Below, in pieces: positions 23,084-62,115 of a stretch of DNA of 64,000 bases. The translations under genes and the position numbers were made by a program. The DNA is from Bacteroidetes bacterium 46-16 (GTDB lineage: Bacteria; Bacteroidota; Bacteroidia; Chitinophagales; Chitinophagaceae). The notes beneath the pieces are model-generated. The model did no database searches. It was not told the origin of the DNA and saw only the letters and a list, made by a program, of their open reading frames with translations. The DNA lies in the NCBI GenBank assembly GCA_001897835.1, contig MKUN01000033.1, positions 1-64,000 on the forward strand. Direction: 5' to 3'. Numbering within the stretch: position 1 is the stretch's first letter; each line of letters begins with the position of its first letter.

Positions 23084-23133
23084 TTTTTAGTATATTAGGC
23101 ATTCTTAATTAACACACAACAACTGAGAAATAT

Positions 23134-24582: not shown

Positions 24583-24628
24583 CCGGCCGGCAGACGGCAA
24601 ATACAGGCATACGCGCCCCTGAAATGAA

Positions 24629-26176: not shown

Positions 26177-26185
26177 TTTGAACCT

Positions 26186-41125: not shown

Positions 41126-41146
41126 TTAACGAAGCGCCTGCGCTCC

Positions 41147-43594: not shown

Positions 43595-43649
43595 CCTTAT
43601 TTTACTGGTGTTTAGCACTAGTGCATTTACAAATCAATAACAGAGGATA

Positions 43650-43674
43650 ATCCATTTATTAAGAGGAAATGGAT
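43650..43674 (+). repeat. Inverted repeat between the kinase and ABC transporter genes
   Basis: ATCCATTT and AAATGGAT pair perfectly over 8 bp with a 9-nt loop, followed by AGTTTTACATTTT. It could be a weak terminator or attenuator that lowers expression of the rest of the locus, or an operator for a second promoter. Confidence 0.4.
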
Positions 43675-43701
43675 AGTTTTACATTTTAATTTTTAATTGA
43701 A

Positions 43702-45477: not shown

Positions 45478-45511
45478 AACAACTGTAGTGACAGGCCCTG
45501 AACCACATAGC

Positions 45512-46447: not shown

Positions 46448-46475
46448 AACGAATACGCAGCGGCAGGAACAGCAG

Positions 46476-47678
46476 ATGTATATAGTAATGGCAATAGAAG
46501 TAATAGCACCCGGAGGGGCTGAAACCTTTGTACTGAGGCTGGCGAAAGCGCTCGAGGACAAGGGCAACAGGGTTATCGTATATGCTTTCTATAAAAACAA
46601 TTTCAACCAGGCCCTTCACCAAAGCATCGCCCCCAACGTGCAGATCATATGGCCCTATATGCGGCTGCCCCGGCTGGCGAGAAAAATAGACAGCCTTTTC
46701 TTCAGGCTCAAAATAAGGCGGAACATACAGGGCAAATACATTAAAGGCGCATTAAAACGCCTGTTGCAGGTCACCAAACCTGATGTGATACACAGCAACC
46801 TGCTCAAAGTGGACAGGACCTGCTTAATGGCAGCGAAGGCAATGAATGTGCCGGTAGTGACAACGATACATGGCGACTACCTGCAGTTTTATGATAAAAC
46901 ACAAAAAGGCGAAGCCATACCCCTGCTCGACTATGAAGAAAAAGCAAGATGGAACCTGGCCAACCTGAAAAAAATAGCCTGTATATCGGATAAGCAAATA
47001 GCTTTCTTCAAGAAGAATTTCCCTGCCGAAACAGAGGGAAAGATCAATAAAATATACAATGGCTACCCCGCCACGAAGCCGGCAGATAAAGGCATTAGGA
47101 AAAGGCTGGGCATAGCCCCGGGTGCTTTTGTTTTCGGCATGGTGTCACGGGGCATACCTGAAAAAGGTTGGGAAACAAGCATTACAGCCTTCAGGCAACT
47201 GAATAATAAAAACACCCACCTGGTGCTGGTAGGTGGTGGTGAATACCTGGACAAACTGAAACAGGAATACGGCACTCACAGCAACATACACTTTGCAGGC
47301 CATAGCAATGAGCCCCTGGAATGGGTAAATATATTTGATGTGGGGCTGTTACCCAGCGTATATGCATCGGAAAGCCTGCCAACCGCTGTAATAGAATACC
47401 TGTGCTGTAACAAACCTGTGATAGCATCGGGCGCCGGAGAAATAAAAAACATGCTGCAAAAGGATAACAGGCCTGCCGGCATAATAATACCCATAGTAAA
47501 CAACAAAGTGGATAGCAGCATACTTGCCGATGCCATGCAGCAATACATGGATGATAAGGCACTCTACGCACAGCATAGTGCAAATGCGGCAATATGCTTC
47601 GAACAGTTTGACATGAACGAGTGTGCAGAAAAGTACCTGGACCTGTATGTAAAAGCTATAGCGGGGATAAAAAACTGA
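46476..47678 (+). CDS. Family 4 glycosyltransferase
   Basis: This 400-residue GT-B enzyme has an N-terminal Gly-rich acceptor-side motif (VIAPGGAETFVLRLAKAL), the central donor-domain start (VSRGIPEKGWETSI) and the EX7E site E299-SLPTAVI-E307. The nucleotide-sugar donor and the linkage are not readable from sequence. It lies 28 nt after the family 2 enzyme and 6 nt before a GT25-type gene, in the middle of the locus. The N-terminal region between residues 60 and 95 is strongly basic, which would favour contact with the membrane surface. Confidence 0.92.
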   Translation: MYIVMAIEVIAPGGAETFVLRLAKALEDKGNRVIVYAFYKNNFNQALHQSIAPNVQIIWPYMRLPRLARKIDSLFFRLKIRRNIQGKYIKGALKRLLQVTKPDVIHSNLLKVDRTCLMAAKAMNVPVVTTIHGDYLQFYDKTQKGEAIPLLDYEEKARWNLANLKKIACISDKQIAFFKKNFPAETEGKINKIYNGYPATKPADKGIRKRLGIAPGAFVFGMVSRGIPEKGWETSITAFRQLNNKNTHLVLVGGGEYLDKLKQEYGTHSNIHFAGHSNEPLEWVNIFDVGLLPSVYASESLPTAVIEYLCCNKPVIASGAGEIKNMLQKDNRPAGIIIPIVNNKVDSSILADAMQQYMDDKALYAQHSANAAICFEQFDMNECAEKYLDLYVKAIAGIKN

Positions 47679-47684
47679 CCGCCC

Positions 47685-48476
47685 ATGAAAGTATATGTGA
47701 TCAATATGGAACGCAGCAAGAGCAGGCGGGTTGCTATAAAAAAGCAATTGAGCCGGCTAAAGCTGGACCATGAAATTATATCTGCCGTAGATGGCCGCAG
47801 TATGAGCGATGCGGAACTGGAGGGAATAGTAAACCCTGCCGAATTCACCAAATCGCAGGCGGGCTGTATGCTATCACACTGCAAAGTATATGAGGCTATG
47901 CAGCGTAGTAATGACCCCTATGCACTGGTGCTTGAAGACGATGTGCTGATAACTGATAATAAGTTAAAGGAAATGCTGGGCAACATGCAGCCGATGCTTC
48001 ACGATAAACACATCACATTACTTACTTATTACTGGTGCAGGGAAAACTCATTGTTGCTGGATAAAATACAACCGGAACGTAAAATAAGCGGGGCTGCCGG
48101 CAATTACTTCTTATGCGCCCCCGAAGAAATACACGGCATCGGCAGGGCTGCTGCATATATCCTGTCGAAAGATACCGCCAGGCGCATACTTGACTTTCAC
48201 CAACCCAAACTAATATGCCAGGCCGATTCCTGGATCGTGTATTATAAAGAAGGCGTGATAGGTGGAGTTGACTGCCTGTATCCCATGCCGATAACAGAAA
48301 ACCCTCAATTTGGTTCGGAAATAGGATATACCCGGAATAAAGCAGAGGCATTTGCAAAAAAACTCGTCGAAAAGGCCGTGAATATGAACCTGCCTGTTAT
48401 TAGTACGATGATCAAGAAGAAGCGGATGAATTTTGCACAAGGCTACAAGAATATAAAACTGAACAACGAAAACTAA
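47685..48476 (+). CDS. Family 25 glycosyltransferase (LPS-type)
   Basis: This 263-residue protein shows GT25 motifs: VYVINMERSKSRR at the N-terminus, ISAVDGR (about residue 30), GCMLSHCKVYEAM (about residue 63) and the EDD triad in LVLEDDVLI (near 83). Family members add galactose or related sugars to lipooligosaccharide. The presence of this type suggests a lipid-anchored surface glycan rather than a purely secreted polymer, though GT25 also occurs elsewhere. It starts 6 nt after the family 4 enzyme gene and overlaps nothing. The C-terminal 30 residues are basic. Confidence 0.88.
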   Translation: MKVYVINMERSKSRRVAIKKQLSRLKLDHEIISAVDGRSMSDAELEGIVNPAEFTKSQAGCMLSHCKVYEAMQRSNDPYALVLEDDVLITDNKLKEMLGNMQPMLHDKHITLLTYYWCRENSLLLDKIQPERKISGAAGNYFLCAPEEIHGIGRAAAYILSKDTARRILDFHQPKLICQADSWIVYYKEGVIGGVDCLYPMPITENPQFGSEIGYTRNKAEAFAKKLVEKAVNMNLPVISTMIKKKRMNFAQGYKNIKLNNEN

Positions 48477-48506
48477 ATATCACTAATTTGTAAACCACTT
48501 ATTGAT

Positions 48507-49394
48507 ATGCGTTTCGCAATTAGAGATGATGATACTAACTTTTTCACCAGCCCGGAAGAGCTGGAAGCCTGCTATGGAGACATTTGGAATGATACACCGG
48601 TGAGCCTGTGCCTTATATCGAAGGTGAAGGGCAATTGGGCAAAATGGGTACACCAGATATATAAAGACAAGCAAGATACAGATTGGGATGCCTGGACAAA
48701 AGATGATACAGTATACCCTATAGAAGATAATGCCGAACTGGTAAGCTACCTGCGGGAGAAAATAAAAGAGGGCAAAGTGGACATAGGCTTCCATGCGATA
48801 CATCACAGGAATGAGGATGACGCCCTGCCCGGCGAGATGAACAATAATTATGTACGTGGTGCTGAATTTTATACCGGGAGGGACCTTACCGAGGCCATAA
48901 AAACAGAAGTGGCCCACCTGGGCAATGTTTTTCAATACCCTATTACGGTATTCACCCCACCACAGAACCTGCTATCGATGAAGGGCTATAAGGCCGTAGT
49001 AAATGCAGGCCTCAATATTTGCGGAGGTGGCCTTAGCTTCATGAAAAAAGAAAAGGACCTGAAGGGCATCGTCAACCTAAGCAAGCAACTTACATTCAAA
49101 CTAATGCACCGGGAAAGTGATTATCCTTACGTGGTAAAATACAGTACCCACGCCGAAGCGCCATATCACTACCCCCTGCAACCCGGCACGCTGCTGCGTA
49201 CACTTACAGATGCGTTTGATATGGTGCACCGTTATAACGGTGATTTTATACTATCGACCCATTATGTAGAATTCGACTACCCTATGGTATATGATGAAAC
49301 AAAAACGATGAAGAATATTATGCATGATTTTCTCGATTATGTATCGGGGTTTGATGTGGAGCGGGTAAGTCTATCTCAACTGCTAAAAAAATAG
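48507..49394 (+). CDS. Divergent polysaccharide deacetylase-like protein
   Basis: This 295-residue protein begins MRFAIRDDDTNFF, where DDD is the expected metal-site aspartate region of NodB-type deacetylases. It has GFHAIHHRN near residue 98 (histidine metal ligands) and FTPPQN near 150 (like the third NodB motif), and ends with a LSTHYVEFD segment. The motifs are relaxed, so the assignment is by pattern, not exact. In this locus it would remove acetyl groups from a sugar before or during assembly; two acyltransferases next door could supply other acyl groups. No signal peptide is present, so it acts in the cytoplasm. Confidence 0.7.
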   Translation: MRFAIRDDDTNFFTSPEELEACYGDIWNDTPVSLCLISKVKGNWAKWVHQIYKDKQDTDWDAWTKDDTVYPIEDNAELVSYLREKIKEGKVDIGFHAIHHRNEDDALPGEMNNNYVRGAEFYTGRDLTEAIKTEVAHLGNVFQYPITVFTPPQNLLSMKGYKAVVNAGLNICGGGLSFMKKEKDLKGIVNLSKQLTFKLMHRESDYPYVVKYSTHAEAPYHYPLQPGTLLRTLTDAFDMVHRYNGDFILSTHYVEFDYPMVYDETKTMKNIMHDFLDYVSGFDVERVSLSQLLKK

Positions 49395-49395
49395 G

Positions 49396-50661
49396 ATGCC
49401 GGACAGCACAGCGCAATCATACAAGATAAACTTTAAAATAATAGACTGGATGCGCGGGCTGGCAGCATTATACGTGGTATTTAACCACTCACGCGGTTTC
49501 CTGTTCACAAGTGCCAACGAGTTTGCGGAAAAAGTAGAGCCCAAAGCGCAATGGCATTGGTGGGAAAGGCTTGACTTCATCGTGATGCAGCATGCCAATC
49601 TCAGCGTGGAATTCGTAACGCTCTTTTTCCTGCTGTCGGGTTTTTCCATAGCGCACAGCCTTAATAATGAGCATAAAGTATCTGCATTTTATAAGCGCAG
49701 GTTTGTACGCCTTTATCCCCCTTATTTACTGGGTATAATATGGGCGTTCGCAGTATTTCTCATTATAAGGTCCTTTGCCTCAGACGTATTCCTGAAAACG
49801 ATTGAGGGACACCTGCCACTCGATTATGAGTACAAGAAATTCGGATCGCTAAAAACCATCCTGTTCAACCTGCTCTACATGCCTATCGGCAATTACCTGA
49901 CACCACAATACTGGTCTTTACCTTACGAGGTGATCTTTTATCTCAGTATTCCATGGTTCATACGGCGGTTCAGGCTTTATGGTGTTTTAACAGTAGGTAT
50001 ATTCATTTATGGTTGCATAAGATTCGGAGCCCTGGTACTGGATACTGACGATGCTTTGACTGTGCATCTGTTCAACCATGAGATACTCACATTTTACCTG
50101 CCCCAGTACTTTATTGATTTCAATCTCTTCTTCCTGATCGGCTTTTTATTTTATAAATATAAAGACATCTTTATCCGAAAATTCATGCTAAATAAGTGGC
50201 TATCGATAGCCATATTGTTCGTGCTCTTTGAAGCCATGGTCATGATAAAAGCCTATAAGTTCCATAATGATCCGAATAAGATCACAGACATGATCATGGT
50301 CTTATTTACCTTCATACTTATATTCGGCTCCCTCAAATACAATATCAGGATAAAGTGGCTGGAGTGGATCGGCGGCTTCAGCTATACTTTATATGTTACC
50401 CATGTTGCATCAATATTCCTGGTCAAAATGATCGCGTATAAAATGGGATTCCACTTTTATGATATTTATAATCTTTACAGTTGGTATTTTGGCATCGTAG
50501 TTTCGGTATTATGCGCCTATTTATTATATTATGCTGCAGAATACCCCTCGATGAAATATTTGAAGAAATTAAGGATCAAAAAAAGAGAAGAGGCACAGGT
50601 TTACACCGCAGCGACTGCAATAGTAACTGCAGAGACAGAGGAACCCGGCATACAAAAATAG
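49396..50661 (+). CDS. Acyltransferase 3 family membrane protein (OafA-like), first copy
   Basis: This 421-residue inner-membrane protein has about ten helices. The N-terminal acyltransferase 3 motif (IDWMRGLAALYVVFNHSRG, from residue 16, containing the catalytic-type His) and a central RRFVRLYPPYLLG (near 105) are clear. OafA-type enzymes move acetyl or other acyl groups from acyl-CoA across the membrane onto a sugar. It starts 1 nt after the deacetylase-like gene and precedes a close paralogue by 11 nt. The C-terminal 25 residues (Thr/Glu-rich) are extra compared with the second copy. Confidence 0.92.
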   Translation: MPDSTAQSYKINFKIIDWMRGLAALYVVFNHSRGFLFTSANEFAEKVEPKAQWHWWERLDFIVMQHANLSVEFVTLFFLLSGFSIAHSLNNEHKVSAFYKRRFVRLYPPYLLGIIWAFAVFLIIRSFASDVFLKTIEGHLPLDYEYKKFGSLKTILFNLLYMPIGNYLTPQYWSLPYEVIFYLSIPWFIRRFRLYGVLTVGIFIYGCIRFGALVLDTDDALTVHLFNHEILTFYLPQYFIDFNLFFLIGFLFYKYKDIFIRKFMLNKWLSIAILFVLFEAMVMIKAYKFHNDPNKITDMIMVLFTFILIFGSLKYNIRIKWLEWIGGFSYTLYVTHVASIFLVKMIAYKMGFHFYDIYNLYSWYFGIVVSVLCAYLLYYAAEYPSMKYLKKLRIKKREEAQVYTAATAIVTAETEEPGIQK

Positions 50662-50672
50662 AGGATCGTTAA

Positions 50673-51851
50673 ATGGCTAATGCTGAAATAAGTTCAGGTT
50701 CAAAAATAAATTTCAGGATCATTGACTGGATGCGGGGACTTGCCGCCCTGTATGTATTGGCACAACATGCCCGGGGCTATTTATTTGCAGATAATGTACG
50801 CTACGAAAAATACATAGCACCAAAGATCAACTGGAACTGGAGACAATGGCTCAATACCCTGATCGTACAGCACACGAACCTGGGTAAGGAATTTGTGATC
50901 GTATTTTTTGTGCTTTCAGGTTTTTGCATCATGCACAGTGTTAGCGCCGAGCCGGGGGGTAAAAAAGGATTTTTTCAAAGGCGACTGCTAAGGCTATATC
51001 CTACCTATCTTTTGGGTATTGCCTGGGCGATAGCGGTTTTCCTGATCCTGAAAGTTACCGTACCTGATGTATTTAACAGCCAAACTGAAGGCTACCCCCC
51101 TTTAAAAATAGCCTATGATGCCTTTGTAAATATCAAAACCTTATCACTAAACCTGGTGTATTTCATCAAAGATAATTACCTCACACCCCAATACTGGTCA
51201 TTGCCGCTGGAGGTAATATTCTATTTATCCATACCATTCTTCGCAAGGCGGTTCAATGCTTACACCATTTTTTCTATAGTCGCATTTGTTATCAGTTGCA
51301 TCTGGACAGGACTTGATTATCTTGATGAAAACAAGTATGATGGCCTGCTCGTGACTGTACGCTACATTTTCGACTATAACATCTATTTTTTTATCGGCTG
51401 TATCTTTTACAAATACAGGGATTTTTTCTTAGCTATATTTAAGATGGACCGGATGCGCAGTATCGTTGCCCTGATGCTGGTATTCCTGCTTTCGGTTTTT
51501 GTAAAATCCTACCTTTTTGAGCAGAATACGAATAAAGCGACGGGCCTGTTAATGGTCCTATTCACCTATATTATGCTGATAGCCGGCCTTAAACACCAGG
51601 TAAGGATAAAATTGCTGGAATGGGTTGGTGGCTTCAGCTATACCTTGTATGTATCGCATTTAGCCAGCTTGTTCATTGTGAAAATAGCAGTGTATAAAAT
51701 GGGGCATCATTTTTACGATATCTTCCTGGTATATGTATGGTACATAGGTGTTGTATTTGCTGTGCTGGTCGCATGGCTGCTGTATTATATTGCCGAATAT
51801 CCCAGCAAACGTTACTTAACACAACTAAGAAATAAACCCACACAACAATAA
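50673..51851 (+). CDS. Acyltransferase 3 family membrane protein (OafA-like), second copy
   Basis: This 392-residue protein is clearly a paralogue of the preceding gene: both contain IDWMRGLAALYV, LTPQYWSLP and EWVGGFSYTLYV-type stretches at matching positions. About ten helices and the N-terminal motif with the His (AQHARG) are present. Tandem duplication followed by divergence would let the two enzymes acylate different positions or sugars. It ends 1 nt before the next glycosyltransferase gene, so the genes are probably translated together. Confidence 0.92.
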   Translation: MANAEISSGSKINFRIIDWMRGLAALYVLAQHARGYLFADNVRYEKYIAPKINWNWRQWLNTLIVQHTNLGKEFVIVFFVLSGFCIMHSVSAEPGGKKGFFQRRLLRLYPTYLLGIAWAIAVFLILKVTVPDVFNSQTEGYPPLKIAYDAFVNIKTLSLNLVYFIKDNYLTPQYWSLPLEVIFYLSIPFFARRFNAYTIFSIVAFVISCIWTGLDYLDENKYDGLLVTVRYIFDYNIYFFIGCIFYKYRDFFLAIFKMDRMRSIVALMLVFLLSVFVKSYLFEQNTNKATGLLMVLFTYIMLIAGLKHQVRIKLLEWVGGFSYTLYVSHLASLFIVKIAVYKMGHHFYDIFLVYVWYIGVVFAVLVAWLLYYIAEYPSKRYLTQLRNKPTQQ

Positions 51852-51852
51852 A

Positions 51853-53055
51853 ATGGGGGACAAAAAAAACATACTGGTCGTTTCTTTCCAGTCGCTTACC
51901 GAGCGCAGTGGTGCGGGCATGGCACGGCTGGGCTATTACCTGTCGAACGAATTGCACAAACGTGGCTTGCTGAAAGAATTTATCGTTTATTCAAAAGGCA
52001 AGTTCACCACCCCCTTTCCCTCGGCAGCAGTATCGCCCCTTTCTCGCTATTTCCTCTTCGTTCTCAATAAATTCAACAAGTACTTCCCCATAAAACCACA
52101 CAAATTCAGGTTCGTGCAGGAGCAATTGTTCGATTGGTTTTGTGCTAAACACCTTGAAGGGCCGGTTGATATATTATTTGTCACTCAGCCTTATTTGTTG
52201 CGCACCTTTCAGAAAGCCAAAAAGCTGGGAATGAAAATTATTTTTATACCGGCCAACCCAGAAGAGAATTATATCAATAGCATAGTAACAGAGGAGAAGC
52301 AAAGAGTGGGTATTGAAGAAGATGATGCCTATACGTATAAGAAACGTATTGATTACTATAACAAGGCGATACAATATGTAGATGTGGTGGTAGGTTCTTA
52401 CCCTACCGTATATGAATCTTATTCGCGCTCAGCATATAAAGGCGAAGTAGTAAAACTCATTGGTCATCTCAAGCCGGACTTCAAGCCAGTATCACCGATA
52501 GACAGGCCGATAGGTCCTGAACTCAAAGTTGGCTATCTTGCCCATACGGTCATTCTTAAGGGCCTGCAATACCTGCTTGATGCATGGGAAATGCTGATGA
52601 AGGAAACCGGGAACGACCCCAACCTGAAACTATATATTGCGGGCGGCATAGACGAATCGATGCATGAATATGTAGTGAAGAACTACCTGAATATAAAAAA
52701 TGTACAATTCGTGGGCAGGATCGGTAATGTACCCGACTTCATGAAAGACAAGGACCTGTTCATTGTACCCAGTCTTGTGGACGGCGGACCATACACCGCG
52801 CTGGAAGCAGCACATTATTGCCTCCCAGTCATTATTACGGCTAATGCCGGATCAGGAGAATTGCTCGGCAGGGATAATAGCGGCTGCCATATCATACCGA
52901 TAAAAGATGCAGCAAGCATAAAAAAGGAAATACTCTGGGCTTACCATAACCGGGAAGAAGCAAAACAGTTGGGCCTGAATGCCAAACACAACCTGGACCA
53001 TTATAAGATGGAAGATTTTATTTCGGAACTGGCCGACTACCTCGAAAAAGTATAA
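51853..53055 (+). CDS. Family 4 glycosyltransferase
   Basis: This 400-residue GT-B-type enzyme starts ILVVSFQSLTERSGAGMARLG (acceptor-side loop, residues 6-26). Its C-terminal donor domain contains VDGGPYTALEAAHYCLPVI, where the first acid of the EX7E pair is Asp and the second Glu. Function and donor are unknown. It follows the second acyltransferase by 1 nt, and the next glycosyltransferase starts 6 nt after it. The variant first acid (Asp) of the usual Glu pair deserves note, but similar swaps occur in the family. Confidence 0.88.
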   Translation: MGDKKNILVVSFQSLTERSGAGMARLGYYLSNELHKRGLLKEFIVYSKGKFTTPFPSAAVSPLSRYFLFVLNKFNKYFPIKPHKFRFVQEQLFDWFCAKHLEGPVDILFVTQPYLLRTFQKAKKLGMKIIFIPANPEENYINSIVTEEKQRVGIEEDDAYTYKKRIDYYNKAIQYVDVVVGSYPTVYESYSRSAYKGEVVKLIGHLKPDFKPVSPIDRPIGPELKVGYLAHTVILKGLQYLLDAWEMLMKETGNDPNLKLYIAGGIDESMHEYVVKNYLNIKNVQFVGRIGNVPDFMKDKDLFIVPSLVDGGPYTALEAAHYCLPVIITANAGSGELLGRDNSGCHIIPIKDAASIKKEILWAYHNREEAKQLGLNAKHNLDHYKMEDFISELADYLEKV

Positions 53056-53061
53056 AGCATA

Positions 53062-54261
53062 ATGAGAAAAGTATTGCTGATAGGGTCGGAACTGGGCAAG
53101 GGAGGGGCGGAACGCTCCATCTCGCTGCTTAGTTATTACTTGCAGCAACGTCAATATGATGTTACACTTTGTATCCTTTCGGGCCGGGACAGGGAAAAAT
53201 TCTATAAGACCTGCGATAAAGTAGTATTTATAGACCCTCCTGCACACAGCAGCATATGGGGCAAGATCACGGCCTGGCGATACCGTCTTAGAAAGGTGAG
53301 GCAATTAAAAAAAGAAGCCGGTACCGATGTGTCCATCAGCTTTCTTGAAGGCCCCGACTATGTGAATGCTATGACAAAGGGAAAGGAGAAAGTAGTGCTG
53401 AGCATAAGAGGCTCAAAGATACATGACCGGGTAATAGCCGGCAGCAAAGGACAACTGCGCAAAAAAGTACTGATACCGATGCTCTATAAAAAGGCCGATG
53501 AGATCGTATGTGTGACCCATGCACTTGCCGGTGAGATGCAGCAATACTTCAATATCCCGGCAAGTAAACTGCGTACTATCTATAACTTCTATGAAAAAGA
53601 AGACATCATTGCAAAAAGCAATGAGCCATTAAGCGCCGATGAGGCTAAAATATTTTCAAAGCCGGTCATCATTACATCGGGCAGGCTGCATGTAGCCAAA
53701 GAACATGATAAACTGGTGCGCATACTCAAAGAACTGAAACAAAGAAGCGATGCCCGGCTAATGATACTTGGCGATGGTGAATTGAAAGAAATGCTCATTT
53801 CACTCGCGTGTGAACTGGGTATGAACGCCTGCGACTGGAAGGGCCAATACGAAGATGCCGATGTGTATTTCATGGGCTTCCAGTCCAATGCCTTTAAATT
53901 TTACCGGCATAGCAAAGTTTTTGCACTGGCCTCATCATGGGAAGGTTTCCCAAATGTACTGGCAGAGGCCCTTATCTGCCACATACCCGTGGTAAGCACC
54001 GACTGCTATACAGGCCCGCGGGAGATATTAAACATCGCGGGGTTGGGTAATAAACCTGTAGAAAATACAATTAGAACCGTAACCGGTTCGTTAATGCCTA
54101 TGCTGGATACCATAAATGCCGCTAAGGCCGCGCTGTGGGCTACAGAGCTGCAATACTGGTTAAATGCTCCTGCAACGCCCGCCGCAGCGTTTGAAGAACT
54201 GCTGCAACGATTTACCTTAGATGCCATGCTGCAGCAATGGGCAGAAGTAATTGAAAACTGA
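53062..54261 (+). CDS. Family 4 glycosyltransferase
   Basis: This 399-residue enzyme has the N-terminal ELGKGGAERSISLLSYYL motif (from residue 9), GRLHVAKEHDKLVRI at the donor-domain start (near 210) and the EX7E pair in WEGFPNVLAEAL (near 295). The motifs resemble those of WaaG/PimB-like enzymes that build lipooligosaccharide or glycolipids. It follows a similar GT4 gene by 6 nt and overlaps the next glycosyltransferase gene. It is likely to extend the glycan after the first sugars. Confidence 0.9.
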   Translation: MRKVLLIGSELGKGGAERSISLLSYYLQQRQYDVTLCILSGRDREKFYKTCDKVVFIDPPAHSSIWGKITAWRYRLRKVRQLKKEAGTDVSISFLEGPDYVNAMTKGKEKVVLSIRGSKIHDRVIAGSKGQLRKKVLIPMLYKKADEIVCVTHALAGEMQQYFNIPASKLRTIYNFYEKEDIIAKSNEPLSADEAKIFSKPVIITSGRLHVAKEHDKLVRILKELKQRSDARLMILGDGELKEMLISLACELGMNACDWKGQYEDADVYFMGFQSNAFKFYRHSKVFALASSWEGFPNVLAEALICHIPVVSTDCYTGPREILNIAGLGNKPVENTIRTVTGSLMPMLDTINAAKAALWATELQYWLNAPATPAAAFEELLQRFTLDAMLQQWAEVIEN

Positions 54262-54265
54262 CATT

Positions 54266-55363
54266 GTGAACATACTCATTATAGATAACTCCATAGCATT
54301 CACAGGCGCCTTTAAATGTGCGCTTAATGAGGCTATGCTTTTATCGCATGAGCACACTTTCGTTTTCGTGATCCCGGGCAATAGTGTACTAAAACCTATG
54401 CTTGAAGAGCATGGATTTACAGTATATACCCTCCCCATGGTGGAAATACGGAAGTCGGCATCTGTGCTTTTAAAGTATTTCCCTGCTTTATACGCCAATA
54501 CAGCCCGCTTGAAAAAGATAATACAGAAAGAGGGCATAGATATCGTGCAGGTAAATGATTTTTACAACCAGCTTGGCGTAGCCCTGAAACGCAGTGGGTT
54601 CAAAGGTAAGCTGTTCACTTATGTGCGCTTTCTGCCTTCGGTAATGCCCGGGATACTCAGGAAAATGTGGCTAAAGGCCGCAGCGAAACACGCGGATAAA
54701 ATAATAGCCGTATCGGACGCTGTACTGGAGCAACTGCCCATAATGCCTAAAACTATACGTATATATGACCCCGTGCAGCTAAGCGAAGTATTACCACTAA
54801 GAGTAACGCAATCCAAAAATACAGTTGATATATTATACCTGTCCAACTATATCAGGGGAAAGGGACAAGACCATGCGCTGGAAGCATTTGCACTGGCATA
54901 CAGGCAAAACAATTCACTCCGTTTAAAATTTACGGGTGGCGATATGGGACTTGAAAAGAACAGGTTGTTCCGCCGGGAACTTGAAGACAAAGCAAAACAA
55001 CAGGGCCTGCCGGTCACCTTTGCCACTTTCAACCCTAATATAGAAGAAGAAATCAAAGCCGCAGATATAGTGCTCAATTGTTCCGAAGCCGAATCTTTCT
55101 CCATGACCTGCCTTGAAACGGCATTTTATGGCACTGCCCTTATAGCTACACGTTGTGGCGGCCCTGAAGAGATCATTGAAGACGGAACAACGGGCCTGCT
55201 GGTGCCTGTGGGCGATATACATGCTATTGCCGATGCCCTGCTTACCCTTGCCAATAACCCGGCAGAAAAAGAAAAAATGGCGGAAGCCGGCAGGGCTTAT
55301 GTACGTACCAAATTTGCACCAGCTAACTTTATGCGCCAATTCGGGACTATCATAAACGAATAA
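54266..55363 (+). CDS. Family 4 glycosyltransferase with non-ATG start
   Basis: This roughly 365-residue enzyme has NILIIDNSIAFTGAFKCAL at the N-terminus and the EX7E pair in SEAESFSMTCLETAF (near 285). No ATG occurs before the conserved N-terminus. The start is either the GTG at 54266 or the TTG at 54251, which overlaps the previous gene by 11 nt. I annotate the GTG because it sits 4 nt after the preceding TGA stop and gives the usual short N-terminus. A weak start codon might lower its expression. It precedes the final glycosyltransferase by 6 nt. Confidence 0.85.
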   Translation: MNILIIDNSIAFTGAFKCALNEAMLLSHEHTFVFVIPGNSVLKPMLEEHGFTVYTLPMVEIRKSASVLLKYFPALYANTARLKKIIQKEGIDIVQVNDFYNQLGVALKRSGFKGKLFTYVRFLPSVMPGILRKMWLKAAAKHADKIIAVSDAVLEQLPIMPKTIRIYDPVQLSEVLPLRVTQSKNTVDILYLSNYIRGKGQDHALEAFALAYRQNNSLRLKFTGGDMGLEKNRLFRRELEDKAKQQGLPVTFATFNPNIEEEIKAADIVLNCSEAESFSMTCLETAFYGTALIATRCGGPEEIIEDGTTGLLVPVGDIHAIADALLTLANNPAEKEKMAEAGRAYVRTKFAPANFMRQFGTIINE

Positions 55364-55369
55364 GCAAAT

Positions 55370-56449
55370 ATGCCTGCTCAAACTAAAATATTGTTCCTTG
55401 TACCATACCCGCTGAAACATGCGCCATCACAACGCTTCAGGGTAGAGCTATACGAACCTTATTTACAACAGGCCGGCATAGCTTACAAGATTGTGCCCTT
55501 CATGGATGAGCATACCTGGCAGGTACTCTATCAAAAAGGTTCCACCATACAGAAAGCATGGGGCATCATTAAGGGATACCTACGCAGGCTGAAAACAGTT
55601 CTCTGGGATATTCACAGCTACACCCATGTCTTCGTACACCGTGAAGCTGCCCCCCTGGGCCCGCCGGTATTCGAGTGGACGATTGCAAAACTGTGGCGCA
55701 AAAAACTCCTGTACGACTTTGACGATGCCATATGGATACCAAACACCAGCAATGAGAATAAACTGGCTGCATGGCTCAAAGCATGCTGGAAAGTAAAACG
55801 TATTTGCCGCTGGGCCTATAAAGTAACGCCCGGCAACCAGTACCTGTGCAACTATGCCGCCCAATATAACAACAATGTAGTACTGTTGCCCACCTGCGTA
55901 GATATGGAGCGGGGCCACAATAAAGTAAAGAACCATACTGCGCACAAGCCTGTCCTTGGCTGGACAGGCAGCCACTCCACCCTGCCCTATCTTGACCTCA
56001 TCATACCCGTGATACAGGAGTTGCAACAGGAAATGGATATATCATTTGCTATTATTGCCGACAAAAAGCCTGCATTGCCACTAAATGACTGGACCTTTGT
56101 AGCATGGAATGAACGAACCGAGATCGAGGACCTGCTAAAAATGGATATTGGCATCATGCCCCTGCAACAAGATGCCTGGAGCGAAGGTAAATGCGGCTTT
56201 AAACTGATCCAATACCTGTCTGCCGGTATACCGGCAATAGCCAGCCCGGTGGGTGTGAATACGATCATTATTGAAGACGGCATCAATGGCTACCTGTGCA
56301 GCGATATGGCAACATGGAAAAAACGAATAAAGGAACTGGCCGCTGACGTACAGCTACGGCAGGCTATGGGAACTGCGGGACATGAAAAGATGCTTAAAGA
56401 ATACAGCATACGATCGCAAAAGGATAAATTCCTGTCTTTATTCACATAA
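55370..56449 (+). CDS. Family 4 glycosyltransferase
   Basis: This 359-residue GT-B enzyme has ILFLVPYPLKHAPSQRFR at the N-terminus (residues 6-23), the central TGSHSTLPYLDLI (near 205) and EGKCGFKLIQYLSAGIPAIAS (near 272). The second Glu of the EX7E pair is missing, and the motif instead reads GKCGFKLIQYL, as in a known GT4 subgroup. It is the last gene of the 13-gene surface-glycan locus. The next gene (DUF6580) has its own promoter after 71 nt. Donor unknown. Confidence 0.88.
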   Translation: MPAQTKILFLVPYPLKHAPSQRFRVELYEPYLQQAGIAYKIVPFMDEHTWQVLYQKGSTIQKAWGIIKGYLRRLKTVLWDIHSYTHVFVHREAAPLGPPVFEWTIAKLWRKKLLYDFDDAIWIPNTSNENKLAAWLKACWKVKRICRWAYKVTPGNQYLCNYAAQYNNNVVLLPTCVDMERGHNKVKNHTAHKPVLGWTGSHSTLPYLDLIIPVIQELQQEMDISFAIIADKKPALPLNDWTFVAWNERTEIEDLLKMDIGIMPLQQDAWSEGKCGFKLIQYLSAGIPAIASPVGVNTIIIEDGINGYLCSDMATWKKRIKELAADVQLRQAMGTAGHEKMLKEYSIRSQKDKFLSLFT

Positions 56450-56478: not shown

Positions 56479-56514
56479 TTTGTCTTTTGAATTTTGAATT
56501 TTGAATTACATTTG
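56479..56514 (+). promoter_or_regulatory. Promoter with triple 7-bp repeat before the DUF6580 gene
   Basis: TACATTTG at 56507-56514 fits the -7 element. Upstream lie three exact tandem copies of TTTTGAA (56485-56505), any of which could supply the -33 TTG. The gap is 17 nt from the first copy and 24 nt from the TTG at 56480. Predicted transcription start is near 56518, 3 nt before the start codon. Confidence 0.4.
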
Positions 56515-56520
56515 CATACT

Positions 56521-57108
56521 ATGAAACGTACGCATATCATTCTCGCAATATTATTGATATTACTGGCTACTGCTTTGCGCATAGTTAACCAGGAAATGCA
56601 TTGGTACAACCTTGCTCCATTGGCTTCTTTAGGCTTATTCAGCGGGGCCATTATTAAAGATAAACGTATCGCCTTCAGCATCACGCTCATAGCCCAGTTC
56701 ATATCCGATATATATATCGCATTGTTCACCCAATACCAGGGCTTTTATGGTGTCGACCAGTTCTTTGTATATGGCGGTATGGTCATGGTTACTTTACTCG
56801 GCACAGGCATGGGGCAGCCCAAAGCACTCAAAGTGCTTGGTTATTCCATTGCCGGCTCAGCCATATTCTTCCTGGTGAGCAATTTCGGCGTGTGGGTAAA
56901 GATCGAGGCTACCGGCGACATATTTGGTTATGGTACAGGGCTTAAGGGCTTGGGTACAACCTTCCTGATGGCCCTGCCATTCTATAGCAAAATGGGCACT
57001 ACCTTATTCTTCAACTCCTTTATTGGTGATATTGTTGGCTGCAGTGTCTTGTTTGGTGCCTATGCCTTGCTGAAACAACCGCTTAGCACAAGGTTGCAGA
57101 AAGCATAA
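56521..57108 (+). CDS. DUF6580 family membrane protein
   Basis: This 195-residue protein has about five to six helices (for example residues 5-22, 31-50, 82-100, 112-130 and 155-180). Its fold resembles the substrate-binding (S) subunits of ECF vitamin/metal transporters, as annotated for the family. Its substrate is unknown, and no ECF ATPase genes are near. I use the ATG at 56521 (MKRTHIILA); an upstream start at 56494 would place the promoter box inside the gene. It has its own promoter and a strong terminator. Confidence 0.8.
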   Translation: MKRTHIILAILLILLATALRIVNQEMHWYNLAPLASLGLFSGAIIKDKRIAFSITLIAQFISDIYIALFTQYQGFYGVDQFFVYGGMVMVTLLGTGMGQPKALKVLGYSIAGSAIFFLVSNFGVWVKIEATGDIFGYGTGLKGLGTTFLMALPFYSKMGTTLFFNSFIGDIVGCSVLFGAYALLKQPLSTRLQKA

Positions 57109-57216: not shown

Positions 57217-57248
57217 TTGCAATTCCCGCAGCGGATTTACTATATTTG
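57217..57248 (+). promoter_or_regulatory. Promoter of the 2TM protein gene
   Basis: TTG at 57217-57219, a 21-nt spacer and TATATTTG at 57241-57248 match the -33/-7 consensus. Transcription would start near 57252, about 15 nt before the start codon. Confidence 0.55.
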
Positions 57249-57266
57249 CGCAAAAGAAAGTTATCC

Positions 57267-57512
57267 ATGCCAAAGAAAATAAAACCAACAGCAGGGCAAA
57301 AAAGCAAGTTCTATATACATTTTGTAGTTTATGCCATAGCCACAGCAGCCATGTTGATGTTATATGACAAAGGGGCTACCGAATGGGTTTACCCATGGCC
57401 GGCATGGATCGTAGCCGCATGGGGCCTTGCCCTCATAGGCCACTGGTGTACCGTATATACCAGCTACGAAGACAAAGGCATGCAGGAATACGAGCAACAA
57501 GCCAAAGGTTAA
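57267..57512 (+). CDS. 2TM domain small membrane protein
   Basis: This 81-residue protein has a basic N-terminus and two hydrophobic helices (about residues 18-36 and 44-62), then an acidic Gln/Glu-rich tail. It matches the 2TM-domain family of Bacteroidota, whose members can stand alone or join to LytTR regulators. The start at 57267 (MPKKIKPTAG) has an A-rich upstream context and lies after the promoter box; the TTG at 57246 is part of that box. The gene stands alone between two terminators. Function unknown. Confidence 0.85.
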   Translation: MPKKIKPTAGQKSKFYIHFVVYAIATAAMLMLYDKGATEWVYPWPAWIVAAWGLALIGHWCTVYTSYEDKGMQEYEQQAKG

Positions 57513-57533: not shown

Positions 57534-57561
57534 ACCCCTTGCTTAACGGCAAGGGGTTTTT
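57534..57561 (+). terminator. Intrinsic terminator
   Basis: ACCCCTTGC and GCAAGGGGT pair perfectly over 9 bp around a 6-nt loop, followed by TTTTAACTT. It ends the 2TM transcript 22 nt after the stop codon and lies 30 nt before the next gene. Confidence 0.9.
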
Positions 57562-57590: not shown

Positions 57591-60257
57591 ATGGACACTC
57601 CCCGGTATAAAGAGCTACTGCAGGAATATGAAAAAATAGCCGATGAAAGGGCACGCATAGACCTGTATATTGAAATGGCCATGGAAGAGCGTAATGTGGA
57701 TATAGAGCGCGCTGCAGACATGGCCGACGAGATCATAGAACGTGCCACAAAAGTAGGCCATACCCTGGCCATAGGCAGGGGTATGAACCTGAAGGGCTGG
57801 TGTTTCTGGTCGCTGGGCAATTATGATGCAGGGGTGGAGATACTCCAAAAAGCAATCAATGTTGCGCACACGGTAAATAACAAACCGCTCGAAGCCCGTA
57901 TCTACAACAACTTTGGCTATATATACCGTGACCGGGGTGAACTTGCAAGCGCTCTTAATTATTTTGAGAAGGCACTGGCCATAAACGAAAAGCTTGGTGA
58001 TGAGGTAGCACAATCGGTTAACTTATCGAGCATAGCATATATCAACTATGACCTTGGCGATTATGAGAATGCATTGGAATTTGCCCTCCGCTGCCTGCCC
58101 ATATTCGAGAAAGCGAAGGATATGCACCGGCTGGCAGCATTGCACCATATACTCGGCAATATCTATTTTAAGCAAGAGCAATACGAAGAAGCCCTGAGAT
58201 ACTTCCGGAAGAACCTCCAGGAGACCGAATTCGATACAGTGATCAATATCATGGCTATCAATGGCATGGGTAAGGTCTATTATAAGACCCACCAGTTCGA
58301 TGAGGCCAACAGGTACCTGTCTGATGCTTTGGCGCAGGCACTCACTATTAATAATGTAGAAGTGCAGATAAGCTGCCATTATTACCTGGGCAGGCTGTAT
58401 ATGGACGATGGCAATTATCGCAAAGCACTGGCATCGCTAAGCGAATCGCTGGAATTGGCAGAACAATACATGCGCCGCCACGATGTTATGAGCATACACG
58501 AGACCCTTTCCGTGCTATACGACCAGATGGGCAATATCCCTAAAGCTTTTCATCACCTGAAGGCCTATGAACAATTAAAAGAAGATATCTTCAGGCAAAC
58601 CACCTTCAATAAGTTGCGCAACCTGCAAACGCGTCAACAGATAGAGCTGGCACAGAAAGAAAAGGAAGTGGCCAAGCGTACAGCTTACCTCAAGCAGCAG
58701 TTCATGGCCAATATGAGCCACGAGATACGCACGCCGATGAATGCCATCGTAGGCATGACCCGCCTGCTGGTGACCAAAGAGCCACGCCCCGACCAGATGC
58801 GCTACCTCGATGCCATTCAGAAATCGGCCGATAACCTGCTCATTATCATCAACGATATCCTGGACCTGTCGAAGATAGAGGCGGGCAAAATAATAATAGA
58901 AAAAACAGATTTTTCATTGCGCGAGGTGATTCAAAGCCTGAGCGATATGCTTATGTTCAAGGCTGAAGAAAGGCATATCTCGTTGCGCACAAACGTGGCC
59001 GATGACATACCTAACCTCATGGTAGGCGATCCTACCCGCATCAACCAGGTATTGATAAACCTTGCGGGCAACGCTATAAAATTCACAGAGAAAGGATATG
59101 TAGCCGTCAATGTATCGATACTTAAAAAAGAGGATAAGACCTGGTGGATAAAGCTGGATGTGGCAGATACCGGTATCGGTATTTCATCTGAATATGTGGA
59201 TAAGATATTTGAAAGCTTTACCCAGGCCGGCACCGATGTAGCGCGTAAATATGGCGGCACAGGCCTTGGGCTCACCATATCCCGTCAATTGGTATCGCTG
59301 ATGCATGGCGAAATGTCTGTCAAGAGCGAATTGGGAAAGGGCACCACTTTTACGGTAGTATTGCCACTTGAAGAGTCGGCAGTACAGGCAGAAGAAGTGC
59401 CCCGGGGCGTGATAGATGATGCTACAATGCAGCGCCTGAATAAAGTGAAGCTCCTGCTGGTGGAAGACAATGAATTTAACAGGATGGTTGCAGAAGATAC
59501 GCTTAAAGATGTGATACCGGGGGTGATTATTGATATAGCGGTGAATGGACAGGAAGCCCTGGCAAGAGTGCAGCGTGAGAACTATGACGTAGTGCTCATG
59601 GACATACAGATGCCTGTAATGGATGGTGTTACTGCCACAAAAGCTATACGCGAAACAATGCCGCCCCCATGCTGCGATGTAAAAATAATAGCCATGACGG
59701 CAAACGTGCTGCAGGAAGATGTACAGCAATATCTTAATGCCGGCATGAACGCTTATGTATCAAAACCCTTCCAGACCGATGAGCTACTGCTGAAGATGGC
59801 TGCAATGATAGAACATAAAGTGCTGGATAGCGAAAAACAGAATGTGCCCAACAGGCCGGAAAAGGATGCCGGCCCGATAAAACCCGGGAAGCAATCGTCC
59901 CCCCCTCAACTACCTGAGAAAGTAACCGATATGCAGTTCCTGACACAATTTGCAGGCGGCAATAAAGAAAAAATAAACAAATACGTCAACATGTTCCTTG
60001 AAAATGCGCCTCGTTTGCTGAGCAATATCCAGGAGGCATTGAACCTAAAAGACTACCCGGCTTTAAAGATCGCAGCCCACTCTCTTAAACCACAACTTTC
60101 TTACATGGGTGTAAAAGAAGAGATAAGTCATATCTTCCTGATAGAACAAACAGCCGGAGAAGCAGCTCATTTTGAACGACTTCCGGAACTTGTAGGCACT
60201 CTTATAGACGTGTGCCGTAAGGCTTTTGAGGAATTGAAACAAGCAGTAGGAACATAA
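57591..60257 (+). CDS. Soluble TPR - histidine kinase - receiver - Hpt hybrid
   Basis: This 888-residue multidomain signalling protein has an N-terminal region of about seven TPR repeats (about residues 60-335, with GYIYRDRGELASALNYFEKAL-like units). A short coiled coil, HisKA with H377 (MSHEIRTPMNAIVG), HATPase, a receiver with D671 (LMDIQMP) and an Hpt domain with H830 (AAHSLKPQL) follow. All phospho-sites are present, so an internal H-D-H relay is possible. There is no membrane helix; the TPRs probably recruit partner proteins. The next gene, 68 nt downstream, codes a membrane-tethered receiver that would be a fitting final acceptor. Confidence 0.93.
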   Translation: MDTPRYKELLQEYEKIADERARIDLYIEMAMEERNVDIERAADMADEIIERATKVGHTLAIGRGMNLKGWCFWSLGNYDAGVEILQKAINVAHTVNNKPLEARIYNNFGYIYRDRGELASALNYFEKALAINEKLGDEVAQSVNLSSIAYINYDLGDYENALEFALRCLPIFEKAKDMHRLAALHHILGNIYFKQEQYEEALRYFRKNLQETEFDTVINIMAINGMGKVYYKTHQFDEANRYLSDALAQALTINNVEVQISCHYYLGRLYMDDGNYRKALASLSESLELAEQYMRRHDVMSIHETLSVLYDQMGNIPKAFHHLKAYEQLKEDIFRQTTFNKLRNLQTRQQIELAQKEKEVAKRTAYLKQQFMANMSHEIRTPMNAIVGMTRLLVTKEPRPDQMRYLDAIQKSADNLLIIINDILDLSKIEAGKIIIEKTDFSLREVIQSLSDMLMFKAEERHISLRTNVADDIPNLMVGDPTRINQVLINLAGNAIKFTEKGYVAVNVSILKKEDKTWWIKLDVADTGIGISSEYVDKIFESFTQAGTDVARKYGGTGLGLTISRQLVSLMHGEMSVKSELGKGTTFTVVLPLEESAVQAEEVPRGVIDDATMQRLNKVKLLLVEDNEFNRMVAEDTLKDVIPGVIIDIAVNGQEALARVQRENYDVVLMDIQMPVMDGVTATKAIRETMPPPCCDVKIIAMTANVLQEDVQQYLNAGMNAYVSKPFQTDELLLKMAAMIEHKVLDSEKQNVPNRPEKDAGPIKPGKQSSPPQLPEKVTDMQFLTQFAGGNKEKINKYVNMFLENAPRLLSNIQEALNLKDYPALKIAAHSLKPQLSYMGVKEEISHIFLIEQTAGEAAHFERLPELVGTLIDVCRKAFEELKQAVGT

Positions 60258-60325
60258 CTATTGGGTGTTCTTTTGCTTTTATAATATTTTTATTTATTTT
60301 TCTACGAAATTGAACAACACAAATT

Positions 60326-60829
60326 ATGGCAACAGATAAGCGTTACATTTTCCTCGTGGACGATGAACCGATACAGAACGAAATGCTCAAGGATTATCTC
60401 GCAGAACGTTTTGTTTATGACATTAAAACCTACGAAAGCGGTGAGGATGCACTAAAGGACATGCACCTGAACCCGGAAATAGTGGTGCTCGATTTTCACC
60501 TGAACAGCAATAAAGCAGGTGCCCAGAACGGTGTAGAAATATTAAAAGCTATAAAAGAGCGCCATCCTTCCACCCAGGTCATCATGCTCTCGGGACAGGA
60601 TAAGATCGATGTGGCTATAGACAGCATGAAATATGGCGCATACGATTATGTGGTTAAGGGCGAAACAGCCTTCTCCCGTATGGAGAACACCATGAACAAC
60701 ATCAGCGAATTACACAGGATAAAGACCATAAACGGGGCATATAAGAACACTATAGTGTTCCTATCCATCGTTATAGGCCTCATTGTGCTGCTGTCTATCT
60801 ACATTTCATACCGCTATATCTTCGTATAG
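60326..60829 (+). CDS. Receiver domain with C-terminal membrane anchor
   Basis: This 167-residue protein has a complete receiver domain (D12-D13 pocket, D56 acceptor in VVLDFHLN, S89 switch, K111), then a short helical linker (112-138) and one hydrophobic helix (about 142-162) ending YRYIFV. There is no output domain. The membrane tether on a receiver is unusual. It lies 68 nt after the TPR hybrid kinase, so it may accept phosphate from the Hpt H830 and carry the signal to a membrane partner, or act as a phosphate sink. Cytoplasmic orientation of the receiver is expected. Confidence 0.85.
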   Translation: MATDKRYIFLVDDEPIQNEMLKDYLAERFVYDIKTYESGEDALKDMHLNPEIVVLDFHLNSNKAGAQNGVEILKAIKERHPSTQVIMLSGQDKIDVAIDSMKYGAYDYVVKGETAFSRMENTMNNISELHRIKTINGAYKNTIVFLSIVIGLIVLLSIYISYRYIFV

Positions 60830-60855: not shown

Positions 60856-60901
60856 TAACAAGTTATTGGTTAGTTTATAACAAGTCACTTGTTTACTTTT
60901 G
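60856..60901 (+). promoter_or_regulatory. Operator-like repeats and -7 box upstream of the aminotransferase
   Basis: TAACAAGT occurs at 60856-60863 and 60878-60885, 22 bp apart (two helical turns). The second copy belongs to a perfect palindrome AACAAGT-C-ACTTGTT (60879-60893). It directly precedes TACTTTTG (60894-60901), a -7 element. A dimeric repressor or activator could bind here. Confidence 0.45.
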
Positions 60902-60924
60902 CTGCTTATTCAAAAGCAGGCGTC

Positions 60925-62115
60925 ATGCAATTAGCCAAAAGACTGGACCTGGTATCTGAGCCCCAAACAATAAAAATGGCGAAGCTCAGCAGAGAGTTAA
61001 AAGCCAAAGGAATCAATATTATAGACCTGAGCATAGGCGAACCTGACTTCCGAACTCCCCAACATATTTGCGATGCTGCGGTAAGGGCTATGGAGGAAGG
61101 ATACACGAAGTATGCGCCTGTTGCCGGCTTTCCTGAACTGCGGGAAGCTATTTGCACCAAACTGAAAAGAGATAATGGCCTGGACTATGCCCCGGGGGAG
61201 ATCTTGGTTTCCGCCGGTGCCAAACACTCATTGGCCAATGCGGTCCTTTCGATCATAGACCCGGGCGATGAAGTGATCATCCCTACACCATATTGGGTTA
61301 CGTACAGCGCCCAGGTGCAACTGGCGGAAGGCACTGCAAAATTCGTGAACTGTACTATCGATAATGATTTCAAGATAACGCCCGAACAATTAGAAAATGC
61401 GATAACCGAAAAAACCAGATTATTTATATACTCATCGCCCTGCAATCCATCAGGCAGTGTGTATTCAAAAGAAGAACTGGCTGCCCTTGCAGAAGTATTC
61501 AAAAGGTATCCAAAGGTCTACATAATCAGTGATGAGATCTACGAATACATTAACTATACTGCCAAACACCAGAGCATAGCACAGTTTACAGAATTGCGCG
61601 ACAGGGTGATCGTGATCAATGGTATGTCTAAAGGCTTCGCAATGACCGGCTGGCGGCTCGGTTATATGGCCGGTCCGCAACCCCTGATACAAGCCTGCGA
61701 AAAATTACAGGCGCAATTCACCTCAGCAGCAAACTCCATTGCGCAAAGGGCCTCGATCACTGCCTTATTAGGCGACCTCGCACCAAGCCATGAAATGACC
61801 CGGGCTTTTCATGCACGGAGAGATTTCGTGATAGATGAACTGGACAAAATTCCCGGCGTTAAGATCAATATGCCTGAGGGCGCTTTTTATGCCTTCCCGA
61901 ATATAAGCGCCTTTTTTGGCAGGAGCGATGGTGAAACTACCATACATATAGATGAGGACTTTAGTATGTACCTGTTGCATAAAGCGCATGTAAGCACAGT
62001 AAATGGCACGGCTTTCGGCAACCCAAATTGTATCCGTATCTCATTCGCTACATCTATGGAGCAACTAAAGGAAGCAATGGCACGCATACGCACTGCAGTA
62101 GCGCAGCTATCTTAG
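60925..62115 (+). CDS. Pyridoxal-phosphate aminotransferase (aspartate aminotransferase family)
   Basis: This 396-residue fold-type I, class I/II aminotransferase has the PLP lysine K236 in SKGFAMTGWRLGY. SSPCNPSGSVYS and SDEIYEYINY are family motifs. It probably transfers amino groups between aspartate or another amino acid and 2-oxoglutarate; the precise substrate is unclear. I chose the ATG at 60925 (MQLAKRLDL), because the upstream TTG at 60889 lies within the promoter box. A palindrome 32 nt upstream suggests control by a DNA-binding dimer. It converges on a lipoprotein gene with a 3-nt gap. Confidence 0.93.
   Translation: MQLAKRLDLVSEPQTIKMAKLSRELKAKGINIIDLSIGEPDFRTPQHICDAAVRAMEEGYTKYAPVAGFPELREAICTKLKRDNGLDYAPGEILVSAGAKHSLANAVLSIIDPGDEVIIPTPYWVTYSAQVQLAEGTAKFVNCTIDNDFKITPEQLENAITEKTRLFIYSSPCNPSGSVYSKEELAALAEVFKRYPKVYIISDEIYEYINYTAKHQSIAQFTELRDRVIVINGMSKGFAMTGWRLGYMAGPQPLIQACEKLQAQFTSAANSIAQRASITALLGDLAPSHEMTRAFHARRDFVIDELDKIPGVKINMPEGAFYAFPNISAFFGRSDGETTIHIDEDFSMYLLHKAHVSTVNGTAFGNPNCIRISFATSMEQLKEAMARIRTAVAQLS

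Follow-up and report, generated by a model that had tools for sequence, protein, structure and literature searches.

A hybrid kinase and a receiver with a predicted membrane tail as a candidate phosphorelay in Bacteroidota

Single-domain response regulators of the CheY, Spo0F and DivK type are soluble. Regulators with just a receiver (REC) domain are described in the available text of one source (PMC12471899), and the archaeal MetOD3-REC-MetOD2 proteins are reported as response regulators with a portion anchored in the membrane (available text of PMC5847659). In Bacteroidota, the type IX secretion response regulator PorX binds the membrane protein PorL, and porX and porY occupy separate genome sites (available text of PMC5005315). 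No description of a receiver whose sole further part is a C-terminal membrane helix was found in the titles and abstract openings of the open-access literature, in keeping with the remark of a first-pass annotation that anchored receivers without an output domain are rarely described. The DNA examined here (i.e. the window) comprises positions 1 to 64,000 of contig MKUN01000033.1 of Bacteroidetes bacterium 46-16 (Chitinophagaceae; assembly GCA_001897835.1), and the genes in question encode a hybrid histidine kinase and, directly downstream, a receiver with a hydrophobic C-terminal tail (i.e. REC-TM, receiver plus predicted transmembrane helix). The source genome (G000) has 4.36 Mb and the pair lies on its contig C33.

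With a probability of about 0.62, the two genes form a single His-Asp-His-Asp phosphorelay in which REC-TM would be the tail-anchored terminal acceptor and output would occur via a membrane partner. The kinase, which bears tetratricopeptide repeats (TPR), would autophosphorylate on H377; D671 in the same protein would receive the phosphate next, followed by H830 in the histidine phosphotransfer (Hpt) domain. From H830 the phosphate would pass to D56 of REC-TM, which the tail anchor would hold on the cytoplasmic side of the cell membrane. REC-TM looks like the receiver and alpha5/linker helix of NtrC1, with a membrane helix in the position of the AAA+ output domain. Phosphorylation, with S89 and Y108 as the switch, would alter the alpha4-beta5-alpha5 face and hence the way in which the linker and membrane helices pack, probably in a dimer; output would be a contact with a membrane partner, which would respond. 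The signal would probably end at the membrane rather than on DNA, and PorX-PorL is a precedent for output at a membrane machine. What the sequence shows is the domain content, a set of residues without variation, a hydrophobic tail and a gene pairing that are both conserved, and the Hpt neighbourhood in relatives; all of the phosphotransfer steps, insertion into the membrane with its topology, formation of a dimer and the partner are inferred.

Relay residues and the hydrophobic tail

The kinase exhibits the order TPR-HisKA-HATPase-REC-Hpt (Table 1), with a TPR_12 match of E 1e-33 in Pfam and an Hpt score of 28.6 bits, above the cut-off of 24.6. Its relay residues lie in the contexts SHEIRTP (H377, HisKA), LMDIQMP (D671, REC) and AAHSLKP (H830, Hpt), as expected of a tripartite hybrid kinase. 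Among the best 25 of 174 NCBIfam models none exceeded its curated cut-off; TorS and BarA scored best, TorS with 401 of 676 bits, far under the cut-off. In the AlphaFold model (predicted local distance difference score, pLDDT, 81.6; predicted template modelling score, pTM, 0.44) a helix of residues 316–395 links the TPRs to the dimerisation and histidine phosphotransfer domain. The kinase has no hydrophobic segment, its Kyte-Doolittle 19-residue maximum being only 1.18.

REC-TM follows the kinase gene after 68 bp, with both genes on the + strand. Its D56 lies in the context VLDFHL, and the acidic pair, phospho-Asp, Ser/Thr, Lys and switch aromatic of PF00072 receivers are all present. Response_reg was the sole Pfam match, and among the best 25 of 68 NCBIfam models none passed its curated cut-off (closest NtrX, 55.1 of 600 bits). 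The 19-residue hydropathy maximum of 2.82 falls at about residues 142–161, with the top five windows all inside 140–162, consistent with the earlier proposal that a predicted C-terminal membrane helix is the only other part of the receiver. Response regulators are usually classed by output domain, and a group consisting of receiver plus membrane helix slips through domain-based censuses because Pfam shows only the receiver and no NCBIfam model among the best 25 passes its threshold.

Conservation of the tail was examined in 80 loci, the best 80 of 253 relatives found. All 80 contain, C-terminal of the conserved lysine, a 19-residue stretch scoring 2.11 to 3.16, which begins 30–34 residues past that lysine and leaves 4–17 residues after it. 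One hydrophobic helix near the C-terminus and no other membrane segment is the sequence pattern of a tail anchor, and a C-terminal segment of at least 2.1 in 80/80 loci does not fit a soluble single-domain response regulator. The mean net charge is +2.6 in the 15 residues ahead of the hydrophobic stretch as compared to +0.8 in the tail. The source genome has 63 receiver matches, and none of its 14 other stand-alone receivers (i.e. open frames of up to 172 aa) has a comparable tail or reaches 1.6. The tail is therefore a stable trait of this family rather than a peculiarity of the genome, and the comparisons across loci and within the genome argue against chance or an annotation artefact as its origin.

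An AlphaFold run using an alignment of 51 relatives modelled alpha5, the linker and the hydrophobic segment of REC-TM as one 52-residue rod projecting from the receiver. As the anchor is a prediction from Kyte-Doolittle hydropathy and the AlphaFold model, the tail might instead be packed inside the protein or inside a soluble oligomer and not anchor it to the membrane. Burial had been named in advance as the observation that would overturn the idea; the model places the segment outside the fold as a continuation of alpha5, and with a maximum of 2.1–3.2 in every locus, packing away from the membrane is very improbable. The hydrophobic helix is, on sequence grounds, better termed a predicted tail anchor, and REC-TM is very probably tail-anchored in the membrane. 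Two other short receivers (L150 and L152, 160 and 156 aa) carry another kind of hydrophobic tail, of which only that of L150 reaches the threshold; these tails are perhaps an independent route to the membrane.

Site conservation was assessed for 55 pairs, comprising the 54 full-length kinase open reading frames (ORFs) from the loci and the window's own. H377, D671 and H830 of the kinase and D12, D13, D56, S89, Y108 and K111 of the receiver were invariant in 55/55 pairs, so the four relay residues reported as intact by the first-pass annotation are found at the named positions and are fixed across the set. Mean conservation in REC-TM was 0.92 for alpha1, 0.99 for the beta5-alpha5 loop, 0.81 for the core, 0.82 for alpha5, 0.59 for the linker and 0.57 for the membrane part. 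Alpha1 and the beta5-alpha5 loop are the receiver parts that usually contact the histidine donor, and the likely docking parts of REC-TM would hence be its most conserved. REC-TM could also drain phosphate from the Hpt domain at the membrane while the real output lies with another, unlinked regulator: it has no output domain, stand-alone receivers serve as phosphate sinks elsewhere, and the receiver matches of the genome include other regulators. A role as a sink is unlikely, as alpha5 of REC-TM is as conserved as its core whereas conservation in the internal receiver of the kinase falls from 0.79 in the core to 0.69 in the alpha5 region.

Within residues 142–161, the conserved positions (i.e. 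143, 146, 150, 153, 157 and 160) form the a/d face of a heptad that extends linker positions 129, 132, 136 (N, nearly invariant) and 139. In a permutation test with the best of seven registers allowed, performed on 41 rows under 80% alike out of 45, this face gave p 0.0016 for the membrane part and p 0.0007 with the linker included. The alignment of the 80 loci reproduced the face (p 0.0007, 40 rows). These patterns moderately support helices that pair with each other or that face a fixed partner.

Pairing and distribution of the two genes

Among 59 genomes, the source genome included, 12 contained a receiver match of at least 60% identity (E 1e-62 or better), and a kinase match at E 1e-292 or below was present in those same 12. 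One further kinase match exceeded the threshold (G045; E 4.8e-123, 41% over residues 350–884), and one genome (G055), in which the receiver match was weaker (43%, E 1.1e-43), lacked a kinase match at 1e-120. From the family, 244 evenly sampled genomes, again with the source genome, were then surveyed at E 1e-40 for the receiver and E 1e-180 for the kinase. Receiver and kinase were each present in 53 genomes and both in 51. The receiver occurred without the kinase in G508 (87% complete) and G525 (70%), and the kinase without the receiver in G454 (69%) and G348 (90%, 790 contigs, with the match cut at a contig end).

By a hand count of coordinates, the two genes were adjacent in 30 of the 51 two-gene genomes, separated by one gene in one (G512) and located elsewhere in 20; some of these 20 pairs sit at contig ends and could be adjacent. 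The genes are apart in nine genomes for which both neighbourhoods were read (G024, G035, G375, G382, G394, G399, G450, G520 and G548). In the 80-locus set, which overlaps the 244-genome sample (e.g. the contig of L046 equals in length the receiver-bearing contig of G024) and is not independent of it, 61 pairs were adjacent, 16 apart and three undecided, with one locus (L111) counted as adjacent where a single kinase ORF ends just ahead of the receiver. The adjacent and apart states require several separate changes on the receiver tree, a quick tree with many weak forks. Protein distances of kinase and receiver correlate at 0.77, much of which common descent alone would explain. One pair, L057, comes from a metagenome-assembled genome titled Azovibrio restrictus; it is a Bacteroidota pair whose receiver is identical to that of L058 over the tree columns, and the contig is probably mis-binned.

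A longer syntenic block (2TM gene, kinase, receiver and aminotransferase) in one part of the family would fit a pair that stays together only because the chromosomal region around it is conserved. That explanation is hardly tenable and already disfavoured: kinase and receiver occur together in unrelated neighbourhoods, both are retained when separated, and only four genomes, 69–90% complete, have one gene alone. No gene besides these two recurs in all neighbourhoods of the 80 loci. Judged from genome comparison, the kinase and REC-TM are a real unit. A lack of joint conservation had also been named in advance as overturning the idea; in the searches for receivers with a C-terminal helix and TPR-HK-REC-Hpt kinase (HK) genes the two proved to be conserved together, including in genomes where they lie apart. 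The separated pairs provide a clean genetic test, in which two unlinked genes are expected to share a phenotype.

Across the order, the family profile matched at least 97 of 248 genomes at E 1e-28, with the own family and NtrC-type regulators included. A wider locus set was assembled from 40 regions around profile copies reaching into the tail and 20 from earlier searches, with look-alikes such as G694:C106 and G702:C817 excluded. Five of these 60 loci (L162, L164 and L175–L177) lacked the tail. For 34 of the 55 REC-TM genes in this order-wide set, an Hpt-bearing gene lies within 600 bp on the same strand, comprising 25 separate Hpt genes and nine Hpt domains that end hybrid kinase genes or fragments; a kinase core neighbours 29 of the 55. 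Hpt genes beside REC-TM fit a phosphate that would end on a membrane-bound acceptor.

The genes often run in the order kinase, REC, REC-HK-REC, stand-alone Hpt and REC-TM (L158, L168, L247–L250 and L257). The Hpt match exceeds the Pfam cut-off in L158 and L247 and lies just under it in L168 (23.1 of 24.6). The first kinase carries hydrophobic segments, two each in L158, L168 and L247–L250 (one in L248, where the ORF begins right at the border of the region), and that of L158 has a Reg_prop/Y_Y_Y sensor part in Pfam. Within the runs of L158, L168 and L247–L250 there is no space between the genes for a DNA-binding regulator, which further disfavours a phosphate sink with its output in such a regulator. 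In another class of the phylum, matches at E 1e-30 occurred in nine of 149 genomes, all of one family, and six of seven new REC-TM loci adjoin a gene with a HisKA motif, none being seen in L245. The tails of these seven loci (L239–L245, family f55) are strikingly alike, with GFQK followed by FW.L...L..Y..YLR.H in 6/7; this likeness exceeds what an anchor alone would require.

The anchored receiver might mainly be a dock that recruits a soluble kinase through Hpt binding, with phosphate secondary. The kinase nearly always accompanies the anchor (51 genomes with both, two with each alone), and of the 54 full-length kinase ORFs, 53 stay below 1.6 throughout. Nevertheless, recruitment as the main function is quite improbable, because the complete phosphorylation site is invariant in the 55 pairs, the L158 and L168 runs start with a kinase that has two hydrophobic segments, and the other class pairs REC-TM with TPR-HK-REC-Hpt kinases that bear two hydrophobic segments of their own (L173 and L174). 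The kinases of L239–L244, in which TPRs were not scanned for, also show a hydrophobic segment. The earlier interpretation, a relay from a soluble kinase to a membrane-bound acceptor, is supported in part. The kinase is soluble, as judged by hydropathy, in the window and its near relatives, whereas L173 and L174 show that solubility of the kinase is not essential to the design.

Several observations weigh against a relay ending on an anchored receiver. The positive-inside bias is modest, with 56/80 loci carrying more positive charge on the N side, 15 an equal charge and nine less. Plain helical periodicity is weaker than the heptad signal (p 0.03, 0.017 and 0.04), and the permutation test for the face depends heavily on positions 143 and 146. 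Co-occurrence of the two genes clusters by descent, and in the 244-genome sample kinase scoring was limited to the three best candidates per genome, so that weaker kinases would escape. Eighteen of the 55 order-wide REC-TM genes have no two-component neighbour, and some may serve other donors; these 55 also include near relatives (L247–L250 and L254–L260) and are not independent. In the genomes with separated genes, a single family was seen near both: an enoyl-CoA-hydratase-like gene, recognised by eye, lies near both genes in G394, and another near the kinase in G399. This is most likely chance, the family being large. Finally, the receiver clade of REC-TM also contains soluble proteins, about 144 aa long, which are encoded next to hybrid kinases in other families of the order and class. 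The anchor, as far as gene context indicates, is dispensable in other lineages, with the same relay slot occupied with and without it.

If the anchored receiver ends the relay, there would be a set of Bacteroidota phosphorelays without a DNA endpoint, and the membrane partner would be a definite target to seek. More tentatively, and with the odds against it, the transmembrane helix may itself be the output domain. Phosphorylation of the receiver would then rearrange a coiled-coil linker continuous with paired membrane helices, so that the signal would exit the cytoplasm through the membrane like a sensor-kinase signalling helix in reverse. This design would recur across the order and a second class, having arisen from an NtrC1-like receiver that traded AAA+ for a helix.

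Neighbouring genes and features of the window

Coordinates of the pair and of a terminator-like hairpin are given in Table 1. The hairpin is a pattern match, of which there are four in the region as compared to a mean of 4.5 in shuffles.

Table 1. Positions in the window of the features of the kinase–receiver pair
Feature	Position	Strand	Basis
Terminator-like hairpin between upstream 2TM gene and kinase gene	57534..57557	+	10-pair stem, 6 G-C pairs, then T run
Soluble hybrid kinase, 888 aa, TPR-HisKA-HATPase-REC-Hpt	57591..60257	+	ORF; Pfam; AlphaFold
TPR region, residues 69-324	57795..58562	+	TPR_MalT match
HisKA, residues 368-432; H377 at 58719-58721	58692..58886	+	Pfam; H377 in 55/55
HATPase_c, residues 479-594	59025..59372	+	Pfam
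Internal receiver (Response_reg), residues 622-734; D671 at 59601-59603	59454..59792	+	Pfam; D671 in 55/55
Hpt domain, residues 798-853; H830 at 60078-60080	59982..60149	+	Pfam; H830 in 55/55
REC-TM, 167 aa, receiver + predicted C-terminal membrane helix, no other domain	60326..60829	+	ORF, hydropathy, Pfam
Receiver domain (Response_reg, Pfam E 4e-18), residues 8-112; D56 at 60491-60493	60347..60661	+	
Single continuous helix, residues 115-166 (alpha5 + linker + membrane segment)	60668..60823	+	AlphaFold pLDDT 93.9, pTM 0.83
Predicted tail anchor, about residues 142-161	60749..60808	+	Kyte-Doolittle; 80/80 loci; conserved heptad face

Three neighbouring genes were considered as further parts of the system and rejected. 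The aminotransferase gene (60889-62115) is near the pair in only 33 of the 80 loci, the 2TM-domain gene (57246-57512) in only 20, and the DUF6580 gene (56494-57108) in four, the flanks being short in that last comparison. The product of the second is a stand-alone 2TM-domain protein (PF13239). Where the pair is split, the 2TM gene stays with the kinase (G375 and G382) and the aminotransferase gene with the receiver (G024, G382 and G450), indicating a breakpoint between kinase and receiver.

A polysaccharide export and glycosyltransferase cluster (40310-56446) lies just upstream of the pair. It was not adopted as a target of the relay: a cluster of this kind is beside the kinase in the same-genus genomes G002 and G003 and absent beside it in G004, with G001 unreadable at a contig end. 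In L172, an HK-REC-TM pair is followed by genes that by eye resemble polysaccharide export genes. The window also contains a sigma-54 factor gene followed by genes for an NtrC-type regulator, a PAS kinase and a REC-PAS kinase (21662-27667); this run was set aside as a partner of REC-TM for want of linkage evidence. No plasmid was matched at E 1e-20, and in a viral structure search receivers and kinases mostly topped the list.

Origin and comparison with known systems

A profile search of solved structures gave 1zy2 (Aquifex NtrC1) as the best match to REC-TM (E 9.5e-21, residues 9–143), covering receiver and linker, with further matches to 4l4u (7–142) and 1ny5 (9–142). A phmmer search with the single protein agreed on NtrC1 (8–135, E 5.5e-14), and CheY and NtrC1 structures ranked highest in Foldseek. 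The receiver tree groups REC-TM, its soluble versions and the NtrC receivers (93–94); the tree was built from few columns and has weak forks and long branches. That the membrane helix occupies the place of the NtrC AAA+ domain is a reasonable inference.

REC-TM resembles NtrC1-type regulators in the match over receiver and linker and, with moderate support, in the grouping of the receivers. It differs from the NtrC family in having neither an AAA+ nor a helix-turn-helix domain, Response_reg being its only Pfam domain, and in the hydrophobic helix that follows the linker. With the single-domain regulators of the CheY, Spo0F and DivK type it shares a complete phosphorylation site and the absence of an output domain, and it differs from them in its conserved hydrophobic tail. 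The archaeal MetOD3-REC-MetOD2 proteins, as presented in the available text of PMC5847659, have a 180-aa MetOD3 before REC and MetOD2 after it, and comprise four members from Methanoregula. PorX-PorY is similar in that a Bacteroidota response regulator acts at a membrane machine; in the available text of PMC5005315 PorX contains a PglZ domain and PorL recruits it, with no membrane segment mentioned, unlike the tail-bearing REC-TM. The kinase of the window shares the HisKA-HATPase-REC-Hpt order of the hybrid kinases ArcB, BarA and TorS, and differs from them in having a soluble TPR input where those kinases have a membrane sensor.

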